DNA from: Dryococelus australis
Lineage: Eukaryota; Arthropoda; Insecta; Phasmatodea; Phasmatidae
Direction of reading: 5' to 3'
DNA: 64,000 bases
NCBI GenBank assembly: GCA_029891345.1
Contig: CM057002.1
Coordinates: forward strand, 59,324,777-59,388,776
Position 1 is the first letter of the stretch; each line of letters opens with the position of its first letter. The position numbers and the translations under genes are program-made. A model generated the notes under the pieces. It saw only the letters and a list, made by a program, of their open reading frames with translations, was not told where the DNA came from and searched no databases. Positions 512 to 64,000 of the stretch are shown piece after piece.

Positions 512-1069
512 GTACACTCCATTCTAGGATTACTTCCAACTTTTCTGTACACCCAGGATATTACTTCGCCTCATGCAAACCAAGCTTAGAAATTACGCCA
601 CAGGGCCAACGCACCGTATTCATGCCCACTCAGTGTAATATTTTTCATAAGAACTATTTCTTACTGCAGGCTATTCACGGTAAAGTAAGCACTTTTGAAA
701 GCCCTCTCATTCGGTATAACAGTTGATAAATATATCTTATGCTAGCCCTAGACGTTAACTTCCGAGTTCGGTGGAATATACACACTTTTTATTACATACA
801 TGGCAATATTTCTTTTAAAAGGTGGTTAAAGGATAAAAAATGGCTGAAACAAAAAAGTAACTAGAGCTTCAGTCATTAACAACACACATATTTCCTATGT
901 CTTTATTCATATTAATTATTATGATTTATAAACAAAATATAAGTAGAAATTCAATTCAGCATAAGTAAGATACTTTTTATGTTAACACAAGTATAAAGCA
1001 CGTCATACATGGGATGTTTTTTCAGAGGTGTCATTAAAAAAGTGTGAAGAAACCGCGAATAGACCATAA
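512..1069 (-). mobile_element. F2 inverted-repeat element interrupted by M1
   Basis: The left part (about 512-668) and right part (about 886-1069) match the two halves of F2, the family best seen at 24465-24896 and 33299-33717. Shared landmarks are the block with AGGATATT and CGCCTC, the stretch of CGCAC and CCACTCAGTGTAAT, and, at the right, CACGTCATACATGG followed by GAAGAAACCGCGAATAGACC. The ends are imperfect inverted repeats starting TATAGTCCATTC in better copies. An M1 copy (669-885) lies inside, so F2 was here first. No coding capacity; non-autonomous. Confidence 0.65.
669..885 (-). mobile_element. M1 type B1 copy, right end lost, nested in F2
   Basis: Begins with GGCTATTCACGGTAAAGTAA, a variant of the M1 terminal repeat, and continues with the B core in reverse (GACGTTAACTTCCGAG, GGTGGAATATACACAC). 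The terminal repeat expected at the right is missing: the sequence passes from CTAGAGCTTCAG straight into F2. Confidence 0.75.
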
Positions 1070-1079
1070 CTTATGCGCC

Positions 1080-1626
1080 GAACTGCTGCACGGAAACACA
1101 TACACGAGCGAGCAACAGGCGAAGGCCCCGCGCGAGGCGCAACGATGCTCGCGGTTCCGCATTCGCCACGGGAATGAATGAACGTGGCAAGGCAATGTGC
1201 CCAGCGGCCAGGCAGACGAGGAGACGGGGAGAGACGTGGCAACAGCGCGCGCCCGCGCGACACTGGCGCTGGCTGCCGGGGATGACGTCACGGAGCTCAC
1301 GCATCCACACACACGCCGCTCGCTCCCCGCCCACCCAGCGCGCCCTGCTAGCCGCGCGCACCGCCAGGTGGTCCTGTCCTGTCACGTCAACCGCCAGGGC
1401 CAAACGTAGTCTTTGGAATGAAGGTGGGGTTGGCAGAAGGGGGGGGGGGGGGCGGACGCCTTTTCAAACCACACACACTCACAGCGCAGCGGCGGTAGAG
1501 GACCGGGGAAGCACGGAAAAAATTTCTCCATCGTCCGCTTTCCTCCCTCCGCTTCTTCCGCAGCCCGTCTTTTTCCCACTGGCGCCACAGCTGCCAACTT
1601 TTGAGAAAGTCTCTACATCACTAAAG
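1080..1626 (+). promoter_or_regulatory. CpG-rich island with probable 5' non-coding exon
   Basis: A sharply GC- and CpG-rich block in an AT-rich neighbourhood. It contains a full cAMP-response/CREB-type palindrome TGACGTCA at 1283-1290 and a G homopolymer near 1440-1452. It ends at CTAAAG followed by GTGAGT, a good match to a 5' splice site (donor at 1627). The pattern fits a TATA-less promoter plus first exon transcribed to the right. Open frames across the block are typical of GC-rich DNA and show no recognisable domain, so the exon is probably 5' UTR. Without transcript data the gene cannot be named; it could also be an unmethylated island with a chance donor. Confidence 0.45.
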
Positions 1627-2220
1627 GTGAGTTTACGATTAAAGACCGAATAATTAAGAATTGTCCGTAATGACTCGATAAGAATACGGAAATTGACAAT
1701 AAGATTTGCAGTTTATGATTGAATTAGCAACTGTTAAAGTCTAGCCAATCAAAATCGTAGGAGATGTAATTTACATATTTAATTATCTGTGCGCTTACTG
1801 CTTGTGTAAACGTTGGAAAAAAAAAAAAAAAAAAAAAAACTCGTGAAATATTATAGAAAAGGAAGCCGATGCCAACATTAGGCATTTGCATCAATAAATC
1901 TGAAAAGGTTAGTTAAAGCGAATTCAATAACCTCTTCCACGAAAGAAAACATGACCATGAACTATTCATTACATTAACGTGATACTATCGCTCGATTAAA
2001 ATAATTACTTTCATACGATTTCACAATACGACATAACCTAAATACAAGATGTAAATACAATTTCCCGCCAACAACAACTATCGCTGTGCTCTGATTGGCT
2101 ACTCCGTCTCGACTTGTACTCCCGCACACGAGTCATAAAATAATACCCTTGAATGCATTGAATCATATCTTAAGTACACGGCGAACTTATTCCGTTAAGT
2201 CAATTTTAAACCCACCTTAA
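1627..2220. other. AT-rich, putative intron; poly(A) tract
   Basis: Starts with the putative splice donor. Holds an A run at 1817-1839 and a short CCAAT-type stretch near 2093-2100 (TGATTGGCT), otherwise nothing recognised. Confidence 0.4.
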
Positions 2221-2640
2221 AGACTGTTCACGATAAAGTGAGCACTTTTGAAATGAATCTTGGGAAAAAAGTCACTGCCCCTGAACGTATATATTTTAAT
2301 GGGCGCACTGAGTATAATTTGTCCAGTAAAGTTGGTAACGATGGCTGGAAAATAGTTCCATATCTTAACGTCGAATAAAAATTATTAGGTAACAATGTGT
2401 GATAACTTCAATGATTTCCTTCGCTTTCTGGTTTTTTGACTGCATCGAAGTGTGAAAATGAGCATATTTGTATAATATTTACTTCACTAAACATACCAGT
2501 TTTACTTGATCGACACATGAATAAAGTGATGAGGCCCATGCAATGATAATTTTACATAAGGCGGAATAATACATAACGGGCATACACGTAGATCTTACGC
2601 AGGGCTTTCAAAAGTGCTCATTTTACCGTGAAGAGTCTAT
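2221..2640 (-). mobile_element. M1 type A, near full length
   Basis: M1 is a short inverted-repeat transposon family of this genome. The ends here are GACTGTTCACGATAAAGTGA at the left and its complement at the right (AAAAGTGCTCATTTTACCGT then GAAGAGTC). Type A cores carry, on the plus orientation, AGATCTACTTGTA near one end and a TTTTTATTCGACGTTAAGAT block two thirds along. This copy is reversed. About 420 bp, no open frame of note: a MITE that would depend on a transposase encoded elsewhere. TA next to the ends in cleaner copies suggests a Tc1/mariner-type target, by inference. Confidence 0.8.
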
Positions 2641-2764
2641 GTACAAAAATCACCACATTGTAATCTTAGTCCGTTTCATATTAAATTTCAACATAACATA
2701 TTTCAAAAAAATTTGTTCTCGCAGCCTGAAATTTCATATATTATTGCTCGTTATGGTTGTTTAA

Positions 2765-3190
2765 AGGCTGTTCATGATAAAGTGAGCACTTCTGAAATCA
2801 ACATTTGAAAAATGTCACTGTCCCTATTTGCGTGTGTTTTTAACGGGCACACGTAGTGACACGCGCCCAGTAAAGTTGGTTACGACCAAAGGGAAGTAGT
2901 TTGGTCCATGCCTCAATCTTGAATTTAAAATGTTCGATAAACATTTGTCACGACTACAATTACTTGTTCTCCTTTCTGATTTTTGTAATGCACATTAACG
3001 TACGGATTAGAAAAACTATAATATATTTACTTTTATAATAATTGTATACGTTTCCCTGCACTGGCGCATGAAAAAAGTGATCAGTTCCACGGCAATGTTG
3101 ATTTTGCATACGGCGGAAGCATACACAATATATTTACAAGTAGATCTTAATCAGATTTCAAAAGTGATCATTTCTAGCCTGAACAACCTA
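2765..3190 (-). mobile_element. M1 type A, full length but diverged
   Basis: Left end GGCTGTTCATGATAAAGTGA; right end TTTCAAAAGTGATCATTTCT then AGCCTGAACAAC, so the right terminal repeat carries several substitutions. The core follows type A in reverse. It lies 124 bp from the previous copy in the same orientation. Confidence 0.75.
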
Positions 3191-3570
3191 TACCACCATT
3201 ATGCATATTCACCACTGTTGGAAATCGAGCAGTTCAACATTAAAAGCAAATAAAATAAACCTTCTGAAATACTCATATGAAGTGTTCTCTACGATTTGCA
3301 TACAAACGCACTGTATATATTGAAACTTCCGAGTACTATTAATGTTCAGACATTTCCAAAACTTCGCTTACGATGGGGACGGGACCGTATAGTTATTCGC
3401 ATAAGAGACAGCTCGCACGACTGTGGATTTTTCAAGATATTCCCATGTTCTCTGTTACTGTTTAGTATTATCTCTGTTTCACCAGTGTCTAGTAAGGACT
3501 ACTAATTTTTCTCTAGTGTTTATTAATTTGTAAGCACTAAACTAAATTGTATTAGGTTCGTGTAAAAATA
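3191..3570. other. Unannotated gap between M1 copies
   Basis: Moderately AT-rich. Short frames only, without domain-like composition. Nothing recognised. Confidence 0.5.
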
Positions 3571-3806
3571 GGCCGTTCACAGTAAAGTGAGCACTTTTGA
3601 GGCCCTAGTTATTTTTTTTATTTTAGCTATTTTTTACCCTGCAACCACTATTTTAAACAAGTACTGCCATGTAAGTAATAAACACAGTGTGCAGATTCCC
3701 CCGCACTCGGAAGTTAACGTCCAAGGCTAAATATAAATATATTTATTGACTATTATTCCAAACGAGAGAGGACCTTCAAAAGTGCTCACTTCACCGTGAA
3801 TAGCCT
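3571..3806 (+). mobile_element. M1 type B1, full length
   Basis: Ends GGCCGTTCACAGTAAAGTGA and AGTGCTCACTTCACCGTGAA then TAGCC. The B core is recognised by AATAAACACAGTGTG followed by a GCACTCGGAAGTTAACGTC block and TTTATTGACTATTATTCCAA. At 236 bp it is about half the length of type A and shares only the terminal repeat with it. TA precedes the left end. Confidence 0.85.
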
Positions 3807-3846
3807 CTAATAAAAATGGTTATATTTAAACACAAGACAAATATAC

Positions 3847-4239: not shown

Positions 4240-4543
4240 AAACAACCAAAATCTCGATATGTCGCAAATACGAAATTTGCCCTTCTCCCCCCTGGATCCA
4301 CTTTCTGAGATCACGCGATCTGGTGAGAAAATCTCCACGTTGGCAACTCTGCCTGGCGTGCCTGAACAGCCCCCTTCCCCAACCAGACTACGGGCGGGAC
4401 CCTCACAAGCCGCCCAGCGCGGCAGCATCACAGCTGTCGGCCGGGGATGCAGGAGAAAACGACACCGGGAACCCCCTTTTCTGCCACAGGTTCTAGCCCA
4501 CACAGCTTCACGAGCTATTCGCTCTAGTCTCAGCAGCGCACGA
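4240..4543. other. GC-rich segment of unknown origin
   Basis: About 300 bp of clearly higher GC and CpG than its flanks, open in both directions (4259-4555 on + and 4234-4566 on -) as expected from composition. No TATA, donor site or recognisable domain was found. May be a decayed promoter island or a repeat. Confidence 0.3.
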
Positions 4544-4770
4544 AATTCGCGGTAAAGTAAGCGCATTTTAAAGCCGTCTCATTTCCTATAATAGTCAATT
4601 AATATACTTCGTTTTAGCCGTAGATGTTAACATCCGATTGCGGTGGAATAATATACACACTACGTTATTACTGACGTGGCAACATTTATTATAAAAGACG
4701 GTTAGCTGATAAAAAATGGCTGAAAGGAAAAAGTAACCAGGCCACAAAAGTGCTCACTTCACCGTGAACA
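4544..4770 (-). mobile_element. M1 type B1, reversed
   Basis: Left end damaged (ATTCGCGGTAAAGTAAGC), right end AAAAGTGCTCACTTCACCGT then GAACA. Core in reverse: GTAGATGTTAACATCCGA, then GGTGGAATAATATACACAC. Confidence 0.75.
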
Positions 4771-5082
4771 CATACTATTTAAAATTCTCTTGCGAGAAAT
4801 TAATCAAAAATCAACAAGTATTTCTTACCAATCCATTATCAACTCTTTATAATCACTTTTTTTTTTTTTTTTTTTCAAAAGTCCAAACACCTACGGGTTA
4901 CTTCCTTTATCCAAGTGAAAACTCTGGAACATTAGATACCATTTAATGTAAAAAAAAATTTTAATGTTATTATATGTTTTTAAAGTGTTTCGAAATATTG
5001 GAAAATAGTTTAAATTCTAATTGTAGTTTTCCTAACAATTTGCCTTTTAAAAGGTGTGAATTCGTATAAGCTGTTGACTTGC
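4771..5082. other. AT-rich spacer with T tract
   Basis: Holds a T run of about 18 at 4858-4875. Nothing else recognised. Confidence 0.5.
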
Positions 5083-6047
5083 GGCTAATTAAGCACTTTT
5101 GGAATCTGCCTTTGAAAAAATGTCTTCCCCTACCAGCAAGCATTTTATTGGGCGCATTGACACACTTCTCAGGTGCGTATCTATACTGTCGCTTTGTGAG
5201 TTAATTTCGTGTTGAGCAGGTCTAGACTTTCGATTAGTGTAATTGGGGGAGGGGGGCATTGGCGTAGCCAGAAATTCCTCAAGGGAGGGGGTTACACTGA
5301 CCAAAGCGAAAGGAGGGAGGTTATATTGCCGTTATCAGTGCTGACCCACGTGTTAATTAGGCCTACGACAAATGATATAACTACTTCAAAATATGATGCA
5401 TTTTTCATATTTTAAAGCAATTTTTATCGAATTTTAAGCTTTATAGACAATTTTAATATTAATGTTGACAACCTTAAGGTTAAAAAGGGGTTTACAGCCC
5501 CCATGGCTTCGCCCAGGGGGAGGGGGACATTGTCTCGTAATTTTAGGAAACAATGTTAGATTAATAAAATCACTACTTTAAACAATTTGTGGTATTCCAT
5601 TTCAGTATTGAAACCTTTGCAGTACAGAATCCTGAAAATGTAAGGGGTTAGGGAGGGGGGAATTAATGTCCCCTGTAAACCCCCCACCCCCTCTTTTTTT
5701 CCTCTAAATTCACACCCCTGCCTCATGAGCCTGGTGAAGTTTGTAACGACGGGGATAAAGAAGTCTCATGTCTTCACGTTGAATTAAAAAGTTTTATGCA
5801 AAGATTTGCGATTACTGTAATGATTTATATTGCTTCCCGTTTTTTAATGCACACGAGTGTAATAATTTGCAAATCACTAAAATATTTATTTTTCTAATAA
5901 TTTTACAGCTTCTCTTGACCGACGCATAAATGAAGTGATAAGGCTCCGTGGCAACGTCAATTTTACATGTAGTGGAAGAATACACAATGTGCACTTAAAG
6001 TAGATCAGCAGGTTTTTTAAAAATAATTCTCAGATTATCGTGGAAGA
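5083..6047 (-). mobile_element. M1 type A split by a roughly 570-bp insertion
   Basis: The left terminal half (CTAATTAAGCACTTTTGGAA, then GGGCGCATTGACA) stops near 5165. The type A core resumes near 5738 (AAGTTTGTAACGACGG, then a TTGAATTAAAAAGTTTTATG block) and runs to TTATCGTGGAAGAGC near 6047. Both ends are eroded. The interrupting sequence is listed separately. Confidence 0.7.
5166..5737. mobile_element. Insertion with TGGCGTAGCCAG-type repeat
   Basis: Interrupts the M1 copy. It carries GGCATTGGCGTAGCCAG (5257-5273) beside G-rich runs, a second G-rich block CGCCCAGGGGGAGGGGG near 5510-5526, and a run of C and T before 5735. The GGCGTAGCCAG phrase recurs at 19670-19680. Similar G-rich phrases are common dispersed repeats in insect genomes. 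The superfamily is unknown and no clear terminal repeats or duplications were found. Confidence 0.4.
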
Positions 6048-9160: not shown

Positions 9161-9348
9161 ATATTTTTTATTCGCAGTAGAACACCCACATAACGAAAAA
9201 TAAGGATATCATTACCTCTTTTTTTTTTAACTGGGTACATATAAAACGAACAAGGAAATCACTTAACAGATAGGCGAGGTTCCGTCAATTCACGGAAAGT
9301 TCTGTGAAATTTCCGGAAAGTCCGCTATTTTTTTTATTCAACGTATGT

Positions 9349-9763
9349 GCTGTTCGCGGTAAAATGAGCACTTTTGAAAGCCCTGCTTACGATCTACTTG
9401 TACATGCACGTTGTGTATTCTTCCGCCTTACGTAAAATTATCATTGCCATGGGTCTCGTCGCTTTCTTCTTGCGTCGGTTAAATGAAAATGTAAAATTGT
9501 TAGAAAAATAATTATAAAAAAAAACTGCTAATTTTTACACTTCGACGCATTAAAAGAAACAGAAAGTGATAGAAATATTTTAATTTATCACAAATGGTTA
9601 CCTAAAACTTTTTATTCGACGTTAAGATATGGAACAACTTTCCCCTACATCATAATCAACCTTATTGGCCGCATGTCACTCAGTGCGCCCGTTAAAATGC
9701 AGGTTGAGGCAGTGACCTTTTTCTAGGGTTCATTTCAAAAGTGCTCGTTTTATTGTGAACAGC
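9349..9763 (+). mobile_element. M1 type A, plus orientation
   Basis: Left end GCTGTTCGCGGTAAAATGAG with AAAGCCCTGCTTACGATCTA. Contains the TTTTTATTCGACGTTAAGAT block and ends TTTCAAAAGTGCTCGTTTTA then TTGTGAACAGC. Confidence 0.85.
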
Positions 9764-13850: not shown

Positions 13851-14132
13851 AGTAGAGACCTGCAAAATTCACGTTATTATTTGAGAACAGTTTAAAATGA
13901 AAACACTTTTACTTTTGCAATACGTTTGTCATTGGACCCCGGTAAATCTGCGCCAATAAATGGACACTCCATAATAGTGTGCCCCAACCACGTACAGTTC
14001 ACTTAAATAGCGAGTGACTTCATATCTGGGTAGCAGCCAATGAAGGAACAACGCCGTCTCGAGTATATACAGCACTATGAATTTTAGCTTGATGCCATAA
14101 AATAACGAAAATTTTGCAGTTTCCTAGCTATA
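13851..14132. other. Spacer, nothing recognised
   Basis: Mixed composition without frames or repeats beyond a lone CCAAT near 14038. Confidence 0.45.
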
Positions 14133-14370
14133 GACAATTCGCGGTAAAGTGAGCGCTTTTGAAGGCCCTCCCAACAGGCATTAACCGCAAATAAATATAT
14201 TTTGTTGCAACCTCACATGGTAATTTTTGATAGTGGAAACCTATGCATTGTGTTTGTTAGTCACATGGCAATTTTTATGCTAAAAATTGAAGGAAAGATA
14301 AAAATTGGCACATAGAAAAAAATTAGCAGGGCCTTAAAATTAAAAAGTTCTCACTTTACCGTCAATAGCC
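14133..14370 (-). mobile_element. M1 type B2
   Basis: Ends GACAATTCGCGGTAAAGTGA and TCTCACTTTACCGTCAATAG, then CC with TA outside. B2 is a diverged sister of B1: the reverse of its GTGTTTGTTAGTCACATGGC block lines up with the AATAAACACAG block of B1. It starts with CCTCCCAACAGGCATTAACC, as the other B2 copies do. Confidence 0.75.
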
Positions 14371-14544
14371 TACACAAACAGTGAATTTCCCGGAAATTAT
14401 CTGAGCGCGCAATATAATTTAACTCAATAGACACACCTTAAAAAGTTATTTTAAGCTGGCTTCTTGCTTGTGTGAAATGTGACTTCCCCATCTGACCTGG
14501 TCAATACTAAACGCCCATGATCACTGTGCAGATAGCTACGGCGT
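14371..14544. other. Spacer
   Basis: Nothing recognised. Confidence 0.5.
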
Positions 14545-15225
14545 GCCAGGTAAAGTCTGTTTCGGTTTCTTCGCAAATTTTTAATCAATCCTTAGAAAAT
14601 TCATTCCCATGCATGATGAAAGCTTGTAACCAAACAAGCTTTCTATACTTGTGTAAACATAAGGGAATATACGAGAACCTTAGAGTTGGTTAAATCGAAA
14701 CTGTATTCATATTTTAACCTTACATAATAGCATTTTATTTATTATTAATAAGAATAAAAAGTGAGAAAATAGGCGTGTTGGTAATACGTATAGGTTGTTC
14801 ACAGTAAAGCGAGCGCTTTTCAGGCCCTAGTTACTTTATCTTTTCAGCCATACTTAATCCTTAACCGCCTTTTAAAATAAATAGTGCAATGTAAGAAATA
14901 AACACAGTGTGTATATTCCACAGCACTCGAAAGTTAACGTCTAAAACTAAAATTAAATTTATTTATTGACTATTATTCCAAATGAGAGGGCTATCAAAGG
15001 TGCTCACTTTACTGTTAATATAGTAAGAAATAGTTCTCTGAAAAATATTACTACACTGAGTGCGCACGAATGCCGTGCGGTGTCCCTTTGGAGTAATTTT
15101 GTAGACTCGGTTGAGCTATGTTTGCATGAGGACGGAGGAATATTCTGGAAGTAGATCTTTAGCAGCAATTCAGAAAAATTGGAAAGTAACGGCGAATTGA
15201 CAATAACAGCCATCCATTCAAATAC
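14545..15225 (+). mobile_element. F2 element carrying a nested M1
   Basis: The left part (GTTTCTTCGCAAATTTTTAATCAA, of which the first bases pair with the far end) and right part (ACTGAGTGCGCACGAATGCC, GGAGGAATATTCTGGAAGTA, ending near AAAGTAACGGCGAATTGA) match F2 halves. The core is split at about 14792 by a B1 copy of M1. Confidence 0.7.
14793..15021 (+). mobile_element. M1 type B1 nested inside F2
   Basis: Ends GGTTGTTCACAGTAAAGCGA and GGTGCTCACTTTACTGTTAA; core AATAAACACAGTGTGTATAT intact. F2 sequence resumes directly after it with TAGTAAGAAATAGTTCTC, the phrase that follows the same point in uninterrupted F2 copies (29598, 49766). Confidence 0.8.
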
Positions 15226-15699: not shown

Positions 15700-15940
15700 T
15701 TGCTACGAAACTATCAAACTTTTGAAAGCCCTGCTTCAGATCTGCTTGTATGTATATCGTATATCCTTCTTCCACTACATGTAAAATTGACGCTGTCATA
15801 AGGATCAGTTTATTGATGCGTCGGTCAAGTGAAACTGTGAAATGGTTTTAAAAGTAAGTAGTTTACCAATTTGCTACTTGTATGCAATAAAAAAAAAACC
15901 AGAAAGCACGATACATCGTTTATGTTTTGTTGCAATTACT
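15700..15940 (+). mobile_element. M1 type A, 5' fragment
   Basis: Begins within a ruined terminal repeat (AACTTTTGAAAGCCCTGCTT) and follows type A as far as the AGAAAGCACGATACATCG region, then loses similarity. The other end is missing. Confidence 0.65.
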
Positions 15941-16279
15941 CCAAGTCAGTGGGTGTAGTCATGTTAGTTAAGGGCTGGAGGCCATAATTAAATAAAAAAT
16001 TGAATTATAATTTCATAATTAATTTACAAACACTATACAGAAAGTACTATCGACTTAAAAGCTGACGGTTAATTGCTATCATTTGCTACTTACAACTAAT
16101 ATTAACATAATCGCCAATCACCTCTCAGTAATTCACGCAATCGAATAATTAAAATTAGCCCCAATAAAAAGTGTGTCAACGCCTGTTGAATTATTTCATC
16201 AATAATATTTGACATTTACGATGGAGTCCGTACCACACACAGTCCCGCCTTGATTCAATTCAAACTCCGCCAATCTGGA
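15941..16279. other. AT-rich spacer
   Basis: Nothing recognised. Confidence 0.5.
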
Positions 16280-16477
16280 ATGTTATAGAGTGCTCCCATC
16301 GCCCCCATGCACAGTAGCCCTCAAATCGTTGGGTACCACGCCCTCTTGTCCGCCAACAACAACACACACACACGCACTCGTACTAAGTCGTTCCGCTCCG
16401 TCGTCCGTCCTCTTGGCTGATGTCCCTCGCTGCACGAGACTTCGCCCGATTGCCGATCCTCCGGCTGCGGCGGTATA
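16280..16477. other. GC-rich segment, left of M1
   Basis: CpG-bearing sequence with a small CA run near 16361-16373. With 16887-17100 on the other side of the M1 copy it may have formed one island before M1 inserted. No gene signal strong enough to call. Confidence 0.3.
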
Positions 16478-16886
16478 GGCTGTTCACGGTAAAGTGAGCA
16501 CTTTTGAAAGCCCTACTTAAGATCTACTTGTATACACGTTGTGTGTTTTTTCCGCCTTATGTAAAATTAACATTGCCATAGGCATCATTACTTTATTCAT
16601 ACTTCGGTCAAGTGAAACTAAAAAATTATTAGAACAGTAAACATTTCACAAATTTGCTCATTTTTACACTTCGGCGCATTAAAAAAAAATAGAAAGCGAT
16701 TGAAATAATTTAAGTTATCACAAATTATAACCGAACACTTATTATTGGATGTTAATGTATGGAACTACTTTCTCATCAATCGTTACCAACTTTACTTGGC
16801 ACATGTCGCTCATTGCGCTCTTTAAAGCATATGCAGGTTTTTTTCTAAGGTTTATTTCGAAAATGCTCACTTTATCGTGAACAGCC
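16478..16886 (+). mobile_element. M1 type A, full length
   Basis: Left end GGCTGTTCACGGTAAAGTGA preceded by TA, then AAAGCCCTACTTAAGATCTA. Right end AATGCTCACTTTATCGTGAA then CAGCC. Confidence 0.85.
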
Positions 16887-17100
16887 TTCATTTAAAGACT
16901 ACGTCGGGTGCAGTCCACAATCTTCTTCAAATGTCGCGTTCCGTCGAGGAAAATGATTACCAGAGAATTCTTACCAACCCTCTCCTCAAGTCGTTGGCAG
17001 GGGCTGTGACGGCAGCCGGGTCACGTAGCGGTGTGCGGATCTGCCCGGGGAGGAGGGGGGAGGATCGAGGTGGGTAACAACCCACAGCGCCGAAATCGCA
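16887..17100. other. GC-rich segment, right of M1
   Basis: CpG-rich, with a G-rich run at 17048-17065 and a GAGGTGGGTAA phrase near 17068 that resembles a splice donor. The short frame through it has no recognisable motif. Confidence 0.3.
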
Positions 17101-17159
17101 CGAGTCCTTGCGTATCAGTGTTCACAAATGTTTAGAAAGCAGAATAAGTGTTAACAAAT

Positions 17160-17333
17160 GTTTATCTAACACTTTTAATTCAACACTAATAATATAATGG
17201 AACAACTTTCCCTCGGCGTGATTAACAACTATACCGGACACTTGCCAGCCCACCTGCCAATTAAAATAGCCTATATGCAGGTGAGGGAAGTGGTTTTGTT
17301 TTCAAAGGTTAGTTTCCGCCATGAACAGCCGTT
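17160..17333 (+). mobile_element. M1 type A, 3' fragment
   Basis: Only the distal part of type A survives: a TTAATGGAACAACTTTCC-like block, ACACTTGCCAGCCCACCTGC, then AAGTTAGTTTCC-type terminal remains and ATGAACAGCC. Confidence 0.6.
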
Positions 17334-17623
17334 ATTTGTGTTGTGCACTGTAGCGAGAGCCATTTAGAACAGTGTAACATCCTCTAGTTGGCTGTTTAAG
17401 GGGAAAGTATGCCTGCCATTTTGGATTTACGTATTTTCCTCCATAACTTAATTTTCAGAGTCAATTTAAAAAAAAACAAGCTAGTCGAGGCACTGGGAAC
17501 ATCTTAACAGTTATTTCGATGAACAAATTATTTTTCTAACATGAATAGTTTCATATGTAACCGTAATCAAATATTAGCTAATTATATAACAATCTCGATC
17601 TCACATTGGTAAATACAGGTAAA
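17334..17623. other. Spacer
   Basis: AT-rich, nothing recognised. Confidence 0.5.
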
Positions 17624-18038
17624 GGCTGTTCACGTTAAAGTGAGAACTTTAGGAATGAACCTTAGAAAAAGTCACTGTCCCTGCATGCGTATATTTTATG
17701 GGCGCACTGAATGATACTCGCCCAGTAAAGTTTGTAACGATGGATGGAAAGTAGTTCCACATCTTAACGTCGAATAAAAAGTTTTAGGCAACCATTTGTG
17801 ATAAGTAATTTTTTTTTCATTTTCGAGTTTTTTTTTTAAATTCGTCGAAGTGTAAAAATGAACAGAATTGTAAAGTATTTACTTTCTTAATTTCACAGTT
17901 TAATTTGACCTAGGCATGAATAGCGTGATGAGGCCCATGGCAGAGTAAATTTTACATAAGGCGGATGCATACACAACATGCATACACGTAGATCATAAGC
18001 AGGGCTTTCAAAAGTGCTCATTTTTACCGTGAACAGCC
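17624..18038 (-). mobile_element. M1 type A, reversed, full length
   Basis: Left end GGCTGTTCACGTTAAAGTGA; right end AAAGTGCTCATTTTTACCGT then GAACAGCC followed by TA. Core in type A order, reversed. Confidence 0.85.
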
Positions 18039-18179
18039 TATATAATTTAAACCGTACAAATTCTAAAAAAAAAATCTTTAAGTAGTCCTCTATGTTTCTG
18101 ATTTCGTATGTCTGGTCGTACAGTTTTATTACGAACATTTGTAGGAAAAATCGGAAGATGGAATGTATACTACCCCCTT

Positions 18180-19535: not shown

Positions 19536-19816
19536 TCGCCCACCAGTAGTTACCCCCCCCCCCCATCTCCTCCACCCAATAGGAAACCTCTCGCTGCACG
19601 CAGAAGCCAGTTCCCAGAGCATCATCACACGGCCAGTCAGGGAACAACAGGTAGGCCTACACCCAGTGGCGTAGCCAGACATTCAATATTCCTTCACTGA
19701 TAAAACATTTGAAGACCAGTAGACACCTGCAGGCCTATTTTTTATTTTACTTAATTTAGTTTGCTTATTTCTTACTGCTTAATAACACCTAACTTCTCAT
19801 TTCACTGATAATTATA
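19536..19816. other. Spacer with C homopolymer
   Basis: C run at 19551-19564. A GGCGTAGCCAG phrase at 19670-19680 recalls the repeat at 5257. Nothing else. Confidence 0.4.
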
Positions 19817-20043
19817 GGCTGTTCACTATAAAGTGAGCATCTTTGAGATCTTTTTAGTTTCAGCCATTCTTGTTATCCTTTAACCAGCTTTTTAAATAAA
19901 AATTGCCATGCAAGTAATAAACACAGTGTGTATATTCCGCCGCACTCATAAGTTTACGTCTAAGGCTAAAATATAATATATTTATTGACTATTTTTTTAA
20001 GTGAGAGGACTTTAAATAGTGCGCACTTTACCGTGAATAGCCC
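19817..20043 (+). mobile_element. M1 type B1, full length
   Basis: Left end GGCTGTTCACTATAAAGTGA after TA; right end AGTGCGCACTTTACCGTGAA then TAGCC. The core contains AATAAACACAGTGTGTATAT. Confidence 0.85.
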
Positions 20044-20579
20044 ATAATTGCATTTATTTCTTAACTTTTGTGTGTCCATATTTCGGGGGAAGTTTGAACC
20101 CAGAATCCCCCAACCTCGGTCTTCCATCAGCTCACGCCTGCCATCTTACACCTTAGCCGAGACAATCGCGCGTGGCTTTGGATTTAAGGCGGATTCCCAC
20201 CCGCCATCTTGGATTTATCGATTTACTTCTATTTCAAAAGGTGTATTGAAATTTCTCGCACGGCAACAGCTTCCCAAACTGTATCGAACAAAGGCAACGA
20301 TATCAATAGTAATAAAAAAAAATGCTGACCTTAGACAATGCACTAGGCAATGCTCTGTGCCCTGTCATTCCAAAAACATGATACAAAATTGCATTTCCAG
20401 AGTATGGCAAAAAAATCCACGAAAATCCGCACGAACAGTTTATTGCATTCTCACGAGACGTACTTTAACACGTAACTATCTTAATACAAGAAATTTTACA
20501 TATAGAATTGTAAAGTTAATGTTTAACTACGCCAGTATGGGGGCCCTTTGCGAAGCCCGTCGGAGGCATAGCTAGTCGT
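20044..20579. other. Region of a 175-codon open frame, not called as a gene
   Basis: The open stretch 20048-20575 is long for the window but shows no recognisable domain, and its first third runs through a tRNA-like phrase (GAACCCAGAATCCCCC near 20096, complementary to a B-box-like GGGTTCAAAC). Probably a repeat remnant. Confidence 0.3.
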
Positions 20580-20779
20580 CAGAAAGCTATAGAAATAATT
20601 TAAGTTATAAATGGTTACCTAAAACTTTTTATTCTACGTTAAGGTATAGAACTACTTTCACCTCCATCGTTACCACCATTATTGATCACTCAGTGCGCCC
20701 GTTAAAACGTATGAAGGTAGGAGCAGTGACTTTTTTCTAAGGTTGAACTCAAAAGTGCTCACTTTATCGTGAACAGCCT
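20580..20779 (+). mobile_element. M1 type A, 5'-truncated
   Basis: Begins inside the core (AGAAAGCTATAGAAATAATT), contains ACTTTTTATTCTACGTTAAG, and ends AAAAGTGCTCACTTTATCGT then GAACAGCC. Confidence 0.75.
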
Positions 20780-21164
20780 TTAGTGTGACTCCGGTCTAAA
20801 GGCACGCCGGAGGGAGGGCAAAATACTCTGCTAAGAGGCCGTTCCCACACCGTAAAAATTTTTCTCTAAAACTTCCTAAACTGTAGGTTACGTTTTTAAC
20901 ATATACACTGTATGGAAATAATACTACACATCTGACCATGAGTTAGGCAGCTCTCTTTCCGCTGGCACCCGTGAGATGAAGGGTTTGCCTCCCTGTCTGC
21001 TAATTCGGCGTGAAGACATAAGTTATCCCGGGTTCATCCCTTTTCGCTTATCAGTACATCTGATCACAAATTATCTTATATTATTTATGCGGAATGCACA
21101 CAAATTCTAATCACATTCATGCCACCATTAGAACGCCAAACGACAATATAAATGTTTAGTGGAG
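20780..21164. other. Spacer
   Basis: Mixed composition, nothing recognised. Confidence 0.45.
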
Positions 21165-22579: not shown

Positions 22580-23158
22580 AAGCATTTACGAACGCCCTGC
22601 AGCGGATGCTGGATAGCAATCTCCCCTCGACATAGCCGACAAGACGACTAACGACCCCACGTTTAAGCTAGCGTAAAATGTTCCGTCAGTTGGCGGGGGG
22701 AACATGCTAGAGGGGTGTGGAGCAAAGTCAAAAAAAAAAAAAAAAAAAAACGATGGGGCAGTTGCTAAGTACCGCGAAGCAGGCGGTGGGTTTATGCCTC
22801 CCCCCCCCCCCCATCGCCAGTCGCTTACACCCTCAGTTTTGAAAAGCGTGCTTCGTGATTTATAGCGCAGCGCGTCCTCAATGCAGCCGGCGTCGACCCT
22901 TATCCTTGGTGCTCTGGGGGGGTCAGCCCAGGCGCGACAGGAAGTAAGATACTGTTGGTTGGAGATGTAGAATGAAAAAAGGGGGGGGGGGGGGGCGAGG
23001 CGCGTTTCCGAAGACTTCGGGCAAGGCACGCCCTCTCAGCTCTGCCCGTCCCGCGAAATGAAGAGACGTGCGAGGCGCAGGCAGCACGAGCCACTGAGAC
23101 AGCGCGGCACAGCGGCAGCACAATTCCGAGGCGATATTTGTCGTACCTTTTCGCGTAA
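22580..23158. promoter_or_regulatory. GC-rich segment with homopolymer runs
   Basis: CpG-bearing block with an A run (22730-22750), a C run (22799-22812) and a G run (22981-22995). Reverse frames up to 147 codons cover it but their sequence is compositional and interrupted by the homopolymers. May be a promoter island; no splice or TATA signal supports a direction. Confidence 0.25.
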
Positions 23159-23159
23159 A

Positions 23160-23583
23160 GACTGTTCCCGATAAAGTGGGCACTTTTGAAAATCAACCTC
23201 TGAAAAAAGTCACTGCTCCTACCTGCATATATTTTAACGGGCGCTCTGGGTGACATGCGCCCAGTAAGGTTGGTAACGATGAATAGGAAGTAGGTCCGTA
23301 TCTTAACGTCGTATAAAAAGCGTTAGGTAACAATTTCTGATAACTTAAGTTGCATATTTAGCTTTATGGTTTTTTTTAATGCATTAAGTGTAAAAATGAG
23401 CAGATTCGTTAAATACGTACTTTTTTTTCCAAATAATTTCACAGATTCATTTGACCGACGCATGAATAAAGTGATGTGGTTCATGGCAATGTTAATCTTA
23501 CATAAAGCGGAAGAATACACAAAGTGCATACAATTAGATCTTAAGCAGGGCTTCCAAAAGTGCTCATTTTACCGTGAATAGCC
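23160..23583 (-). mobile_element. M1 type A, reversed, full length
   Basis: Left end GACTGTTCCCGATAAAGTGG; right end AAAAGTGCTCATTTTACCGT then GAATAGCC. Core contains ATCTTAACGTCGTATAAAAA in reverse order. Confidence 0.8.
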
Positions 23584-24464
23584 CATACCTATCAAAATAA
23601 ACCCTAACCATGTGACTTTCAGCTGGTGTTTATATCAGCTGGCTCATACGTCCGCTACACTCATTAAATAAACAGCAAAATGTAATAAATATTATTACTA
23701 GCACAATAAACACGTACACGTTAATTTCAGCAAATAATGGTGGTTTGTGAATATTGATCGATGTTCGCGATTCTTGTTTCTGTGTAGACGTAATTTTTTT
23801 TTTTAAACTATGGTCAACACTTCCGAGCACATAAGAAAATATGTTACATGTACGTCACCAAAAAAAATTAAATATTCGTTTTCCCGTTACAAAAACAACG
23901 CCAAGACGTTTAGAGCGCTCGCCTTTATGTAGTGTTAAAGATGAAACGTTCGCCCGTTCAAGGAAGGCAAACTATCAGATTATACGGTGTTTTTTACTCC
24001 TTCATACATATGACAACGTGCTCCAAACTGTTGTTAAATGACCAAATAATTATGCTTAACTTTTACGAGTGTAATTATATTCTATAAGTACCTCAAAAAT
24101 CGATATTTTAAGACAACACAACGTGCAAGCAAAATGGCGCGCGTTGCTATCCCATTACGAGTACCGACCGTAATGAAAACAAATATCATGCCATTGAGTG
24201 TCTGAACATAATTTATAAATGTTTACAGCATACCTCCACAGTAATATTTGCAACCGAAGCATGTTTCGTAACAATTCTTCCAGCCACGCAGGTTTTAAAG
24301 CACATTGCACTAACGTTTGCTAAGCTTTGCCTGCAAAAAAAAAATCACTTTTCACTTATAAGATTTAAATGCCTTCACTGATATGAATGTAATTACACCA
24401 CCATATTGAAGACACAATTGCTAGACGATGACACTGCTGTAGTAGGTGAAAGGGAATTCATGCG
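23584..24464. other. Unannotated AT-rich region
   Basis: About 880 bp with only short frames. Nothing recognised. Confidence 0.5.
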
Positions 24465-24896
24465 TATAATCCATTCGCGGTTACTTCAGCCTTTTCTGAA
24501 ACTCTGCTAAAGTTCTACTTCCAGGATATTCCTCCGCCTCGTGCAAACTAAACTTAACAAGTCTGGATAATTACACCAGAGGGACAACGCGCCACATTCG
24601 TGCGCACTCAGTTGTAATGATATTTTGTATAAGAACTGTTTCTCACTAGACGTTACCTACATACCTATTTTCTCCCTGTTTTTTATTAAAATTATTTATC
24701 AATGAAGCATTATAATTTATAGATAAGACATCAATAACATTTCAATTTAACAGGAAAAAAAGTAACTTTTATGAACACAAGTATAAGACGCTCGTGATAC
24801 AGGGCGTATTTAGGAAATAACTAAACACGTCATACATGGGGAAATTTTTCAAAGGTTTGATTCGAAAAGGCCGAAGAAACCGTGCATGGACTATAG
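24465..24896 (-). mobile_element. F2 element, full length reference copy
   Basis: Left end TATAATCCATTCGCGGTTAC, right end in reverse TATAGTCCATGCACGGTTTC: inverted repeats of about 35 bp with several differences. Landmarks are ACACCAGAGGGACAACGCG, the CACTCAGTTGTAATG phrase and GTGATACAGGGCGTATTTAG. At 432 bp it has no coding capacity. Six other copies in the window share this order. Confidence 0.75.
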
Positions 24897-26503: not shown

Positions 26504-26736
26504 GGCTGTTCACAGTAAAGTGAGCACTTTTCAGGCCCTGGTTACTTTTTTTCTTTTAGCCATATGTTATCCTTTAACCACTTTTTAAAATAAGTATTAC
26601 GATGTAAGTAATAAACACAGTGTGTATATTGCACCGCACTCGGAAATTAACGTCTAAGGCTATAATAAAACATATTTATTGACAATTATTCCAAATGAGA
26701 GGGCTTTCAAAAGTGATCACTTTACCGTGAATAACC
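26504..26736 (+). mobile_element. M1 type B1 inside the A+C-rich block
   Basis: Ends GGCTGTTCACAGTAAAGTGA and AAGTGATCACTTTACCGTGA then ATAACC. Core AATAAACACAGTGTGTATAT. The A+C-rich composition resumes on its right, so it was inserted into the block. Confidence 0.85.
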
Positions 26737-35497: not shown

Positions 35498-35499
35498 TA

Positions 35500-40286: not shown

Positions 40287-40521
40287 GGCTATTCACGGTA
40301 AAGTGAGCTATTCTGAAAGCCCTTTCATTTGGAATGATTGTTAATAAAAGTATTATTTTTTTTCTAGACTTAGACGTTAAATTCCTTTTGCGGTGGAATC
40401 TTCATACTGTGTTTATTACTTGCAAGGCGATATTTATTTTAAAAGGTTTTTAAAGTATTTAAAATGGCTGAAATATAAAGTAACTAGGGCTTCAAAAGTG
40501 CTCACTTCACCGTGAACAGCC
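40287..40521 (-). mobile_element. M1 type B1, reversed, full length
   Basis: Ends GGCTATTCACGGTAAAGTGA and AAAGTGCTCACTTCACCGTG then AACAGC; TATA on both outer sides supports a TA target. Confidence 0.85.
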
Positions 40522-41027
40522 TATAAACAAAATAATGTCCCCGTGAAAGTTTTCAGCAAAATGCATGGCTTATTAGGAATTATTCATTTAACTCGTAATA
40601 GAAAACGAATTCGTTATTTATATTGTCGCGTGGAAGAAATAATTTTCGTTTATAACTAGGGACTTGTCAGTGTCGAGTTAGAACTAAGATACACATCAAC
40701 GGGGACTTGCACCAAACAACCTCCCTGCTTTTCAGAACTGACAACAGCATACCAACTCAAATTGTTATAAATTTCGATTAATCGAGAAAGAAGATAACGT
40801 ATTTCGTGAAACCTCTCTGCTTTTCACATGTTATTGTCTGGCTGTACCTAGTTTGTGTTGGAGCTCTCCACATCCAGCTGCGCCAGACTATTTACCTACT
40901 AAGATGTACTTAAAAAGTATGTGCATTCGTTTAAAATTTATGAAAGGGCGACTTTTTTTAATCATCGCCATGGTTACTGAGTGCACTCGAATCACAGAAA
41001 AGCAAGTATGGTAACAACAACTAGAAT
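40522..41027. other. Spacer
   Basis: Nothing recognised. Confidence 0.5.
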
Positions 41028-41448
41028 AGGCTTTTCACGATAAAATGAGCACTTTAGGAATGAACCTTAGAAATAAAGTCACTGTCCCTGCATGCATATA
41101 TTTTAACGGGCGCACTGAGTGACATTCGTCCATTAAAGTTGGTAACGATGGATGGGAAATAGTTCCAAATCTTAAGGCCGAATTAAAAGATTTAGATAAC
41201 CATTCGTGATAACTTAAAATTATTCCTTTCGTTTTCTGTTTTTTTATGCATCAAAGTGTAAAAATGAGCATATTTGTAAAGTATTTACTTTCTTAATAAT
41301 TTCACCACTTCATTTTACCGGCGTACGAATAAAGTGATGAGGCCCATGACAATGTTAATTTTACATGTAGCGGAAGAATACACAACGTGAATACAAGTAG
41401 ATATTAAGCAGGGCTTTTAAAAGTGTTCATTTGACCGTGAACAGCCTT
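41028..41448 (-). mobile_element. M1 type A, reversed, full length
   Basis: Ends GGCTTTTCACGATAAAATGA and AAAGTGTTCATTTGACCGTG then AACAGCC. The last M1 before a gap of about 8.6 kb without M1. Confidence 0.85.
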
Positions 41449-49511: not shown

Positions 49512-49951
49512 CTATATTCCATTCACGAGTTTCTTCGGCCTTTTTGAATCAAACCTTTGAAAAATCTCCCTATGTATGACGTGCTTGGTTGTTTCCAACA
49601 TACGCCATGTATCACACGTATTTTATACTCGTGTTAACATAAAAGTTGCTTCTTTTTCTCTGTAAAATTGAAATGTTATTCATATTTTATATATATATAT
49701 TATATTGCTTCATTTATAAATAATTTGAATAGAAACAGTGAGGAAACATGTGTGTTGGTAGCGCCTAGAAAGAAATAGTTCTTATACAAAATATTGTTAT
49801 AACAGAGTGCGCACGAATCCGGTGCGTTGTCCCTCTGGTGTAATCATCCATACTTAGTTGAGCCTAGTTTGCACGAGGAGGAGGAATATCCTGGAAGTAG
49901 AATTTTAGCAGGGCTTTAGCAAAGTTCGAAGATACCGTGAATCAACTATAG
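49512..49951 (+). mobile_element. F2 element, full length
   Basis: Starts TATATTCCATTCACGAGTTT and closes ACCGTGAATCAACTATAG. Contains GTGTGTTGGTAGCGCC, AACAGAGTGCGCACGAATCC and GGAGGAATATCCTGGAAGTA. Adjoins the Tc1 fossil. Confidence 0.8.
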
Positions 49952-50057
49952 TCGCCAGTTCGCAAGCTGCCACACTGCCCGTTCACGGCAGAAGGTCACA
50001 CGTATTAGTAATGGTAGATATAAGGGACGCCGCGATGACAGATACCGCCCTTCTATA

Positions 50058-50468
50058 GGCTGTTCACGATAAAGTGAGCACTTTTTAAAGCCCTGCTTAA
50101 AATCTACTTGTATGCACGTTGTGTATTATTTCGCCGTATGTAAGATTGACATTGTCATGGGCTTCATCACTTGATTCAAGCGTCAATCGAGTGAAACCGT
50201 GAGATTATAAAGTAAATATTTAATAAATCTGTTCATTTTACACTTCAATGCATTAAACATAGAAAGCGAAAGAAATAATTTTCATTATCAGAAATGGTTA
50301 CCTAGCACTTTTTATTCGACGTTAAGATATTGAACTACTACCCATCCATCGTTACTTAACCTTACTGGGCGCATGTCTCTCAGGACACCTGTTAAAATAC
50401 ATGCAGGTAGGGGCAGTGACTTTTTTATAAGGTAGATTTCAAAAGTGCTCACTTGATCGTGAACAGCC
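50058..50468 (+). mobile_element. M1 type A, full length
   Basis: Ends GGCTGTTCACGATAAAGTGA after TA, and AAAGTGCTCACTTGATCGTG then AACAGCC. Core with AAATCTACTTGTATGCACG and the TTTTTATTCGACGTTAAGAT block. Confidence 0.9.
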
Positions 50469-51269
50469 TTTAGCCGCCTGAATATGGAATTGATGTACAC
50501 AGGCCTATCCCCAGCTGCCTTAACACGTTACTAGAGCATCCCGGTGTGTACGCTGTTTAGACAAACGGAGCTGGAAAGCAGGCCACAAGGAGATTTATAA
50601 AACACAGATTCAAAACAACGAGCCACTTCTGCGATCAGTAAACTAACCAAGAGATGAGCGAGTTTAATCAGAAATTGTGGGTCCGGCAAACCTCATGAAA
50701 TTCCTTCGAAATACAAACAGATTACTGGGAAACTCCGCCCTAGGTGCACAGCGGGGACCAATAGAAATACACGTCTCAAACGAGCACGCATGGTGGGGCG
50801 AGGAGTGTGAAGGAAGCCACGGAGCCATCCAAAGATGCAGTCGGCGTCAGGTCGCCGGAGCAGCCAGCTGGGGATCCAGTACCAGAAGGTCGGAGCGGCG
50901 AGTCCCGGATTGGAGACGATGGTGAGAGCAACTCCCTGTATGCTTCTCTCAGTTTCCAAACTTTACCTCAGAACCATCTCCTTGCCTCCATAGTTTACCA
51001 GTCAACTAATTACAATGATATTGTAATTCTACCTTGTTATACATTAAAGTAACTTAGTACAATTTAACTTAACTATTATTCTCATTTAATACAATCCTTC
51101 CTATCTTCCCTCTTTCTAACAGTTTATGAGATGATGTTAAAGTCAACTTATAACAACGTCCATGGATAGCACGTGGCGACGCTCGTGGAGTGCTTACAGC
51201 CTGTCTGTCGCATGACGAAACGATCCTCCTAGCTGGTGTCGACCCGAGCCTTCTTCACGGGCGTGTATA
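50469..51269. other. Mixed region with a GC-rich middle
   Basis: 50690-50930 is GC-rich with an ACCAATAG box at 50757 and GACGATGGTGAGAG near 50917, which resembles a splice donor. No domain was recognised in the frames crossing it, so no gene is called. Confidence 0.3.
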
Positions 51270-51506
51270 GGCGAGTCACGGTAAAGCGAGCATTTTTTAA
51301 GGCCCTGCTGAATTTTTCTTTTCATTAGATTTCTATCATTTTGTCACTTTTTAACATAAACATTGTCGTCAGACTAATAAACACAGTGTGTACATTTCAC
51401 CACTAGCAAAAGTTAATGCCTGGACCCGCAAAAAAAAATCTATTCATTAGTGGTTAATGCCTATTTAAAGGGCCTTAAAAATTGCGCACTTTACCGTGAA
51501 CAGCCT
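51270..51506 (+). mobile_element. M1 type B2
   Basis: Ends GGCGAGTCACGGTAAAGCGA and ATTGCGCACTTTACCGTGAA then CAGCC; TA on both sides. Core contains GACTAATAAACACAGTGTGT, the bridge to B1. Confidence 0.85.
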
Positions 51507-51622
51507 ATACCATCCTGTTCTCACTGCGTCCAACACTGACCCACAGTGTAGGAAGAACGGTCCAAGTGGCGAGCAATGCGTTTGAAACGGCCAACCTGCC
51601 TCTCGGAGGCCAACGACGCGTG

Positions 51623-54892: not shown

Positions 54893-55570
54893 CTATAGTC
54901 TGTTCGTTGTTACTTCACACTTTTTGTATCAAACATTTGAAGAAACACCCAACGTATGACATGCTTCGTTGCTTCCTAAATATTTCACGTAAGTTATCAC
55001 GGGCGTTTTATACCTCTGTTAATATAAAAGTACTTTATTTTCGGTTAAATGTTACTTTTACTTGTATCTGTCTTATCTATAAATATCCCGTTTATAAGTA
55101 ATATCAATAGAGAAAGAGAAAAAATAGGTAAATGAAGAGAATTGGACGGCTCGTAACCTCGAGGTCTTGAGAGCAGATGAGGATGATTGAGGCGAGTATG
55201 GAGCAGCGCCGGATTGGAATGGCGGGGTAAAAGGGACATCCGCTAGAAAAAACCGCTGACCAACGGCATCGTCCGGCACGATTCCCACATGCGAAAATCC
55301 GGAGTAACCCGGCCGGGGATTGAATCCGGATCCCCGTGATGTGAGGCGAGCAGACCAACTGCTCAGCCACCGTGGACCCCAGAAAAAATAGGCGTGTAAG
55401 TAATGCCTAGTAAGAAAAATATTCTCAGGCAAAATGCTATTACACTGAGTGCGCACTCGGTCCGCTGGTGTAGTTTTCTACACGTTATTTGCATTAGGCG
55501 GAGGAATATCCTGGAAGTAGGACTTAATCACGATTTCATAAAATCTGGAAGTTACCGCGAGTGGTCTATA
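54893..55570 (+). mobile_element. F2 element interrupted by SINE S1
   Basis: Starts CTATAGTCTGTTCGTTGTTA and closes TTACCGCGAGTGGTCTATA. The halves on each side of the SINE join at AGAAAAAATAGG, which matches uninterrupted F2 (GAATAGAAACAGTGAGGAAA region at 49727 and AGTGAGAAAATAGGCGTG at 14759). Confidence 0.8.
55129..55380 (-). repeat. SINE S1, full length with 12-bp target duplication
   Basis: The exact duplication AGAAAAAATAGG lies at 55117-55128 and 55381-55392, proof of retroposition into F2. Reading the minus strand: head GGGGTCCACGGTGGCTGAGC with A box TGGCTGAGCAG, B-box region GGATTCAATCC, body ACGATGCCGTTGGTCAGCGG, and tail ATCTGCTCTCAAGACCTCGA ending in a TCTCTTCATTTA stretch rather than poly(A). 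Confidence 0.9.
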
Positions 55571-56900: not shown

Positions 56901-56902
<2 letters not shown>

Positions 56903-62502: not shown

Positions 62503-62615
62503 CGCCAGGTATCCACACCACCGAGAGTTACACCAGGCATCCACAGCACCCATAACGACACCAGGCGTCCACACCACCAAGAGCTATTCCAGGTGATCGC
62601 AGCACCGGTTACGGA
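62503..62615. repeat. 28-bp tandem repeat, about four units
   Basis: Units begin CCAGGTATCCACACCACC, CCAGGCATCCACAGCACC, CCAGGCGTCCACACCACC and CCAGGTGATCGCAGCACC at 28-bp spacing. It lies directly at the end of the mariner fragment listed next, whose coding sequence provides the last unit. Confidence 0.7.
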
Positions 62616-62715
62616 GGGTGCCCACATCGTCCACTGGGGTTACATACACAAGTGCCTTTAAATGTCCCCACAAACAAAAGTCTAGTGGATTCACATCAGG
62701 GCTCCTCGGGAGCTG
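62540..62715 (-). pseudogene. Mariner-like transposase C-terminal fragment
   Basis: The minus strand reads RSPDVNPLDFCLWGHLKALV followed by YVTPVDDVGTLRNR and CCDHLE. This is the RSPDL-PLDFFLWG end of the insect mariner-like DDE transposases and the helical tail after it. Only this end is left. Distinct from the copy at 6.4-7.7 kb (there SPELTPLD-CVWGWLK). Confidence 0.75.
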
Positions 62716-62917
62716 GTATGGGGCTGCCAATTACAGCTGTCATAGCATTCCACAGTAACATGATCCAGCCCGCGGGCCATGCACTGTACATTATCTATTA
62801 TGGGCTGAAGTACAGATATAAAGCATTTGCGGACCTATGTTCAAATAACCTCCAGATGTGAGGAATGTTCCCCCGAAGTATTGACATGCTATATTGCAAC
62901 GTCCTGTATAAAAGCTT
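62716..62917. other. Spacer
   Basis: Possibly more decayed mariner sequence on its left; nothing definite. Confidence 0.35.
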
Positions 62918-63135
62918 GGCCCAATATAGAACGTATACCTCATTTTCGTAAGCGTAGTAAGCACGTATCTTGAGTAAGGGTCTTACCTATTCGGAATATA
63001 TAACGTATACATCATTTGTGTAAGCGTAGTAAGCACATATCTGGCGTAACTATTCGCAAAATCTTTAGAACGTATGCCTCTTTTGCGTAAGTTTAGTAAG
63101 TACATATCTTGCGCGAGACTCTTAACTATCCGCAC
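62918..63135. repeat. Tandem repeat, three units of about 72 bp
   Basis: Each unit has AGAACGTATACCTC-like start, TTTTCGTAAGCGTAGTAAGC and ACGTATCTTG, then a CTATTCGGA-like end. Units begin near 62928, 62998 and 63067. Confidence 0.7.
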
Positions 63136-63916
63136 CAAGATTTTATGTACTAAATATTAATTTATACAAAAATATTAATTTGTAGAAAAATTTGCTATGG
63201 TTTTTTGGCCACGTCTTACAAGGTCTACAAATTCTGTAACTACTCCTATAATAAGTGTTGTATTTTTAGTTCATTTATAAATAAAAGCTTGGTTTTAAGA
63301 GTTTTTTCAATTAATTTTAAGTTCACTTTTTTCTCGCCTATTTTTTTTTTTACTATATAGGTAGACTATTTATACATTCAAAGACTCATCCGTCATCTGT
63401 ATCACTTGCGTTCAGGCAAGTTTCAGTGCACTCTTTACGTGGGAAGTCGAACCGGGATGCTGAATATTCGTTGTTCATCTCACACGCGCGTGTACGGCGA
63501 TGGTATTTGACATTTCAATTCGACCTCACGCAGATCGGATTCTTCAAATGGTATTTCACATACACACACGTGGTCGATCATTTGAATTCCTTCTTGTGCT
63601 TCAAAGTTTGGATGGTGTTTTACCCACACAACCATGTGTAAACGAGGACTTCCCCGGCACTGAAACTCTACACGCCACCAGCAATCGACAACTTGTCCAC
63701 CAAGTACATCGTGATTGCTGGTGATTAGGTGAGCGCCGGACAGACACCTCGCTGACACCTACCGTACGTACAAACAAGCGAAGTTGAATAAAAGCTTGCA
63801 TAAAAGCTCGTAAAAAGATAAAGAATTTACCTAGTTACGAAGTTATTTTATATTTTATTTATGTTTAATGCAATCATCTTGTTTGTCAACGTATAGAACA
63901 GAGAAAAACTCTTATA
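63136..63916. other. Unannotated
   Basis: The segment 63420-63760 is less AT-rich, with overlapping frames on both strands (63500-63724 and 63480-63758). No domain was recognised. Nothing else. Confidence 0.4.
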
Positions 63917-64000
63917 GGCTGTTCACGATAAAATTAGCACTTTCGAAAGCCCTGCTTAAAATCTACATGTATGTACGTTGTGTATTCTTCCGCCTTATGT
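63917..64000 (+). mobile_element. M1 type A, cut by the window edge
   Basis: GGCTGTTCACGATAAAATTA after TA, then CGAAAGCCCTGCTTAAAATC. The rest lies beyond the window. Confidence 0.85.

Follow-up and report, generated by a model that had tools for sequence, protein, structure and literature searches.

In a genomic stretch of 64,000 nt of the stick insect Dryococelus australis (contig CM057002.1; hereafter, the window), two short, non-coding elements, which we call A and B (the latter with sublineages B1 and B2), end in the same inverted repeat and represent a new, very abundant family of miniature inverted-repeat transposable elements (MITEs), ordinary in kind and very numerous. It is probable that A, B1, B2 and, more distantly, a third family, C, are related non-autonomous MITE families of the Tc1/mariner type, with a common ancestry and with mobilization in trans. 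By anatomy, A and B look like MITEs of this type, their driving transposase being a putative one that is suggested by the features of the elements themselves.

The terminal inverted repeat is about 38-41 bp long (TAGGCTGTTCACGGTAAAGTGAGCACTTTT...) and stands at either end of the consensus sequences of A and B, as in other MITEs, with the first ~40 bp common to the ends of the two families. The ends read (T/A)AGGCTG..., flanked by TA, and start with TAGGC, except for the right end of A, which starts with AAGGC. With up to three mismatches allowed, the 20-base end GGCTGTTCACGGTAAAGTGA has 32 matches in the window and none in 100 shuffles. The pattern count and the alignment of the consensus sequences both recover the ~38-bp terminal repeat around two element types that an initial annotation of the window had described. 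The copies that were compared end at the same terminal bases, within different flanking DNA. Their lengths are short and uniform, as is typical of MITEs, with A being ~420 bp long (408-424 bp across 12 copies) and B ~235 bp (203-241 bp in 33 of 35 copies, the remaining two measuring 184 and 275 bp). The 35 B copies split into B1 (n = 13) and B2 (n = 22), with mean distances of 0.23 and 0.20, respectively, within the groups vs. 0.34 between them, consistent with the two sublineages proposed in that annotation. Family C is a TA-flanked MITE of ~430 bp with different ends (TATAATCCATTCGCGGTT...) and seven copies or pieces in the window.

None of these elements appears to code for a protein, the earlier claim for A and B having been that none codes for a transposase: the longest stop-free stretch of any consensus spans 80 aa, and the consensus sequences bear no convincing resemblance to the reading frames of transposase loci that were fetched from elsewhere in the genome (labeled with L and a number below). 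The matches at E values of up to 1e-3 that might have pointed to remains of a coding region in one of the three families were rejected, since the frames of L024, L067 and L086 overlie A copies and the frame match in L090 overlaps a C-like stretch. One short match to B2, at the same place in L034 and L059 (E value of 6e-4), is unexplained.

The same 20-base end is extremely frequent across the genome (3,415,067,245 bases in 646 contigs were searched), with 328,067 matches at up to two mismatches (164,281 forward and 163,786 reverse) compared to nine matches (six forward and three reverse) for the reversed control pattern, a copy number as high as that expected of MITEs. The window, with 26 ends at this threshold vs. 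6.1 expected per 64 kb from the genome mean, is about fourfold richer than average. Given that there is approximately one such end per A or B copy in the window, the genome would hold on the order of 300,000 copies. A census of the cores behind perfect ends (48 loci taken from a list of 100, all of them on contig C1) gave 21 B2, 15 B1, nine A and three rearranged A or B loci, and no third core or long element among these 48. The rearranged loci, judged by eye, are an A and a B2 that have been shortened internally (L115 and L117, respectively), and a tandem array with a B end (L047). The genomic A:B ratio derives solely from this census, which under-samples A because each end of the A consensus differs from the pattern by one base. 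No exact match to a 24-mer of the end was found in viral contigs. Mean identity to the consensus is 0.858 for A (n = 12), 0.869 for B1 (n = 13) and 0.887 for B2 (n = 22), in copies that were partly selected for perfect ends. At an insect substitution rate of ~3e-9 per site per year, A and B would be roughly 40-50 million years old, which should be taken as a rough figure only.

The target site provides the next line of evidence. Among 64 full copies found in the window and the fetched loci, 10 from eight overlapping or passenger loci were dropped and three full C copies were not counted; of the resulting 51 full-length A and B copies, 30 are flanked by TA on both sides, another 19 on a single side and two on neither, consistent with the earlier remark that TA often stands at the edges. 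Six of the B insertions have empty relatives, and of these six, four fit a 2-bp TA duplication (one of them exactly), one shows AA and one is ambiguous. The exact case, L063, is a B1 copy within a mariner remnant, which was compared with 17 other mariner loci (including two overlapping pairs): it reads ...GGTTT-TA-[TAGGC...GGCCTA]-TA-CTAACAAATG, whereas related mariner copies read ...GGTTT-TA-CTAACAAATG; the junctions displayed hold one TA each, and L065 has a deletion there. L048 fits a 2-bp duplication as well, with TG at the site in its empty relatives. In the window, the empty relatives of the B copy at 14789 agree with a 2-bp duplication, as does the left junction of the copy at 26500 (empty relative in L011), the right end of which has decayed; for the copy at 35260, the register against its empty relative at 6058-6133 is ambiguous. 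The initial annotation had stated beforehand that ends lacking a TA duplication in empty-site comparisons would speak against its reading, and for B the duplication was found. These sites thus give B the target duplication of a MITE and, with the single AA exception, the 2-bp TA duplication of the Tc1/mariner (ITm) group. PIF/Harbinger elements duplicate 3-bp TWA, hAT elements 8 bp, piggyBac elements TTAA and Mutator elements 9 bp; the 2-bp duplication does not fit a derivative of any of these.

Taken together, the same ends with TA flanks, the non-coding interiors and the 2-bp duplication of B suggest that A and B were plausibly mobilized by the same kind of transposase. Under this model, a transposase of Tc1/mariner type (IS630-Tc1-mariner) would act in trans to cut and paste A and B, the ends of which are its predicted binding sites, and its source may be an autonomous element that is scarce, has died out or has so far gone undetected. 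Both families would go back to one ancestral element, the left end of which (~105-125 bp) may still be recognizable in the left end of A and the right end of B, with the interiors having presumably diverged by deletion and replacement and some copies having probably multiplied as passengers within other repeats.

The initial annotation had offered a different version, i.e., one transposase that mobilized two independent derivatives with unrelated interiors, formed by separate deletions or captures. The shared ends, the TA flanks and the lack of coding capacity agree with its first part, and the ends and flanks also speak for independent derivatives. Most of the interior is indeed unalignable between A and B, with a best same-strand local score of 30 compared to a maximum of 31 from 30 shuffles. 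On the opposite strand, however, the score is 35, above the shuffle maximum, and the stretch responsible joins the left end of A to the right end of B. These two ends can be aligned in register for ~60-80 bp past the repeat, and with the repeat removed their score was reached by none of 500 shuffles for the joint consensus and by one of 1000 for each of B1 and B2. Further, the B consensus matches three A copies over 106-117 bp by BLAST (16474-16579, 23482-23587 and 41337-41451). Hence, the earlier statement that A and B have nothing in common beyond the terminal repeat does not hold, and unrelated interiors obtained by independent capture are possible but rather doubtful.

A second alternative is that an unrelated MITE gained the repeat by recombination or gene conversion, in which case A and B would be hybrids joined by their ends only. 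Consistent with such an exchange, the right end of A and the left end of B have the terminal repeat alone in common, and the other A/B end combinations (three with the joint consensus and six with B1 or B2) are at chance, the best being reached by 46 of 500 and 146 of 1000 shuffles, respectively. The ends of the window copies are also less diverged than the cores, with values for the two ends vs. the core of 0.066 and 0.095 vs. 0.139 in A (n = 8), 0.105 and 0.097 vs. 0.124 in B1 (n = 5), and 0.063 and 0.161 vs. 0.204 in B2 (n = 5). But selection by the transposase would likewise be expected to preserve the ends better than the cores, the comparison covers a small number of copies (eight, five and five), and on one side, between the left end of A and the right end of B, the similarity extends past the end; we therefore regard an exchange of ends as quite unlikely.

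The left end of A also connects to family C, which matches it at 66% over 98 bp (BLAST, E value of 3e-6); with the ends removed, the score between the left ends of A and C was reached by none of 200 shuffles for two C copies and by nine of 200 for a third, with 24 end combinations tried. A, B and C look like branches that split long ago from one lineage and still have a left end in common, as far as comparison of their sequences can tell. A modular system, in which ends and interiors are swapped among A, B1, B2 and C, or replaced in each independently, under one transposase, with ~300,000 copies and with C-plus-B composites that are mobile as a unit, seems unlikely.

Several observations weigh against common ancestry within Tc1/mariner-type MITEs. 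The relation of A and B past the ends is short and weak, and profile searches with nhmmer only hint at it: the B2 profile hit six of 12 A copies at the same place with E values of 0.28-3.5, compared to seven of 240 shuffled sequences, the B1 profile hit one of 12 vs. five of 240, the A profile hit none of the 35 B copies, and no real hit was obtained between A and C. This weak result past the ends also favors independent derivatives. In addition, a TA duplication alone is no proof of Tc1/mariner, and AA stands on either side of the B insertion in the L014 family, the host repeat of which gave no empty version by pattern at up to three mismatches; a diverged empty relative is L009. No clean empty site was found for A, the sole case (window position 9344) being weak and gapped, so the target duplication of A is deduced from its flanks. 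Finally, no autonomous element with A or B ends was recovered among the 66 transposase loci described next, a small, score-biased part of the candidates.

These 66 loci comprise 30 of 150 listed matches to PF13358, 30 of 144 to PF01359 and six of 150 listed matches to PF03184, a small sample chosen by transposase score from first-look candidates numbering 14,198, 720 and 8,242, respectively. Since the sample is small and was picked by score, a parent may have been missed; the 2-3 kb element with a transposase that the initial annotation predicted was not encountered in this small part of the candidates, which does not amount to its absence. Nor was a longer element holding both the A and the B interior found, and the subterminal similarity is one-sided. 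Inward-facing ends surround a transposase in two of the 66 loci, L023 and L062, and both were rejected as parents. In L023, consensus positions 427-357 of A are followed by a Tc1-like element, which has inverted ends of its own, and then by A positions 357-6, that is, an interrupted A copy. L062 is a twice-interrupted A copy, reading A 421-377, a repeat of ~355 bp, A 397-70, a mariner, and A 71-3; the ~355-bp insert near the right end of A resembles repeats in L005 and L007, and the mariner sits at A position 70/71. These two loci serve as a warning against taking a transposase for an autonomous parent merely because matching ends bracket it. Weak end-like matches in L095 and L096 (eight edits, no TA flank) were taken as chance. 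Separately, mariner sequences stand in a foldback arrangement in L062 and L076 (G000:C3, near 187.51 Mb), the arms in L062 being 633 bp long at 95%, and in an inverted (foldback) arrangement, with paired opposite matches, in L080 and L084 (G000:C17, near 205.03 Mb).

Part of the spread of B was as a passenger. B lies at one fixed site in six of 30 DDE_3 loci (L014, L021, L026, L028, L033 and L034), and at one site and in the same orientation in two C copies of the window. Three of these six, taken at a length of 7.5 kb each (L059, L060 and L061), are ~88-94% alike over nearly their whole length and each carries a second B copy, which is B1 in the two loci where it is complete and is only partly recognized in L059. 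Such fixed sites in host repeats indicate that some copies multiplied with the host repeat and, together with one end found within a 63-bp tandem array, might suggest that A and B spread mainly inside larger repeats or satellites, without transposition. The same terminal bases within different flanking DNA, and empty relatives that reveal individual insertions, make this highly improbable.

The host repeat of L059-L061 is itself longer than 7.5 kb, carries its two B copies ~4.4 kb apart and pointing the same way, and contains a frame for a Tc1-like transposase (361 aa without a stop in L034 and L059). The tandem array occupies positions 1-1001 of L047 (G000:C1:4346700-4347700); its 63-bp unit includes the B left end plus adjacent DNA, and it closes in a B copy. 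The array may be a young satellite that arose from a MITE end.

Several features recall systems described previously. The IS630-Tc1-mariner group is described as having a TA duplication, ends of ~20-30 bp and small non-coding derivatives (PMC7325037), and A and B are like such derivatives in the TA duplication (B) or TA flanks (A) and in being small and non-coding, but unlike the group in that an autonomous element with their ends was not found in our 66 loci. According to the account of the stick insect Clitarchus hookeri, MITEs are its most abundant repeat type (87 models, 1,214,018 copies, 5.79% of the assembly), are also reported from Bacillus stick insects, and are given there as absent in Timema cristinae (PMC5691397); A and B resemble these in abundance as described there. 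A text search of the literature for strings of the end sequence, with supplements and figures outside its reach, returned no paper. The genome of D. australis is reported to span 3.42 Gb in 1,879 scaffolds (17 of them large; N50 of 262.28 Mb) and to be 63.29% repetitive, with DNA transposons at 9.45% and the majority of the repeats (1.56 Gb) assigned to no class; the main text of that report uses neither the word MITE nor the word mariner (PMC10268593). The A/B family is probably part of this unclassified fraction of the 3.4 Gb genome, and its consensus and target duplication now allow its annotation. If it were true that it is also the dominant MITE of C. hookeri, this would help explain stick-insect genome growth.

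Within the window, BLAST of the A, B and C consensus sequences placed A and B copies on both strands, as had been claimed earlier, and reproduced the earlier count of 14 for B (partial copies included), but gave 12 rather than 13 for A: eight full-length copies, one cut by the window end, one truncated and two in pieces. The full-length A copies are those at 2218..2640 (-, 88% to consensus A), 2762..3193 (-, 77%), 9343..9763 (+, 87%), 17618..18042 (-, 87%), 23155..23588 (-, 88%), 41028..41447 (-, 88%) and 50054..50472 (+, 88%), plus one with a perfect end at 16473..16888 (+, by pattern match and BLAST). The copy at 63913..64000 (+, 93% over 88 bp) is cut by the window end and that at 20580..20782 (+) is a right half only. 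The two in pieces lie at 5092..6022 (-, pieces 5092-5160 and 5724-6022) and 15718..17316 (+, pieces 15718-15907 and 17145-17316), the latter being an older A with another A between its pieces.

B1 copies, classified against B2 after BLAST, lie at 3568..3810 (-), 19811..20047 (-) and 40283..40526 (+), together with two that have empty relatives, at 26500..26731 (-) and, inside a C copy, at 14789..15018 (-), and one with a diverged left end at 4541..4772 (+), which was located separately from the consensus BLAST set. B2 copies lie at 14129..14372 (+), 28326..28571 (+), 35260..35501 (-, the one with the ambiguous empty relative), 36669..36879 (+) and 51266..51509 (-). The other B copies are partial: one inside a C copy with its right end lost (668..856, +), a left part (34024..34172, +) and a right part (34355..34474, -). 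C is found at 24465..24895 (+, its left end similar to A in an end alignment), 29349..29724 (-, 76%), 33300..33716 (+, 84%), 49513..49950 (-, 83%) and, in pieces, 54909..55570 (-), and the copies at 553..1068 (+) and 14689..15200 (-) carry the B copies at 668-856 and 14789-15018, respectively. The regions 41.45-50.05 kb and 51.51-63.91 kb have no A or B match, in agreement with the gaps described earlier (41.4-50.0 and 51.5-63.9 kb), though C copies lie there.

Apart from these elements, local direct repeats spaced 53-130 bases apart give positions 45502-45923 of the window a minisatellite-like appearance, and long (AT)n tracts occur near 28960-29010, 52830-52885 and 56850-56905.

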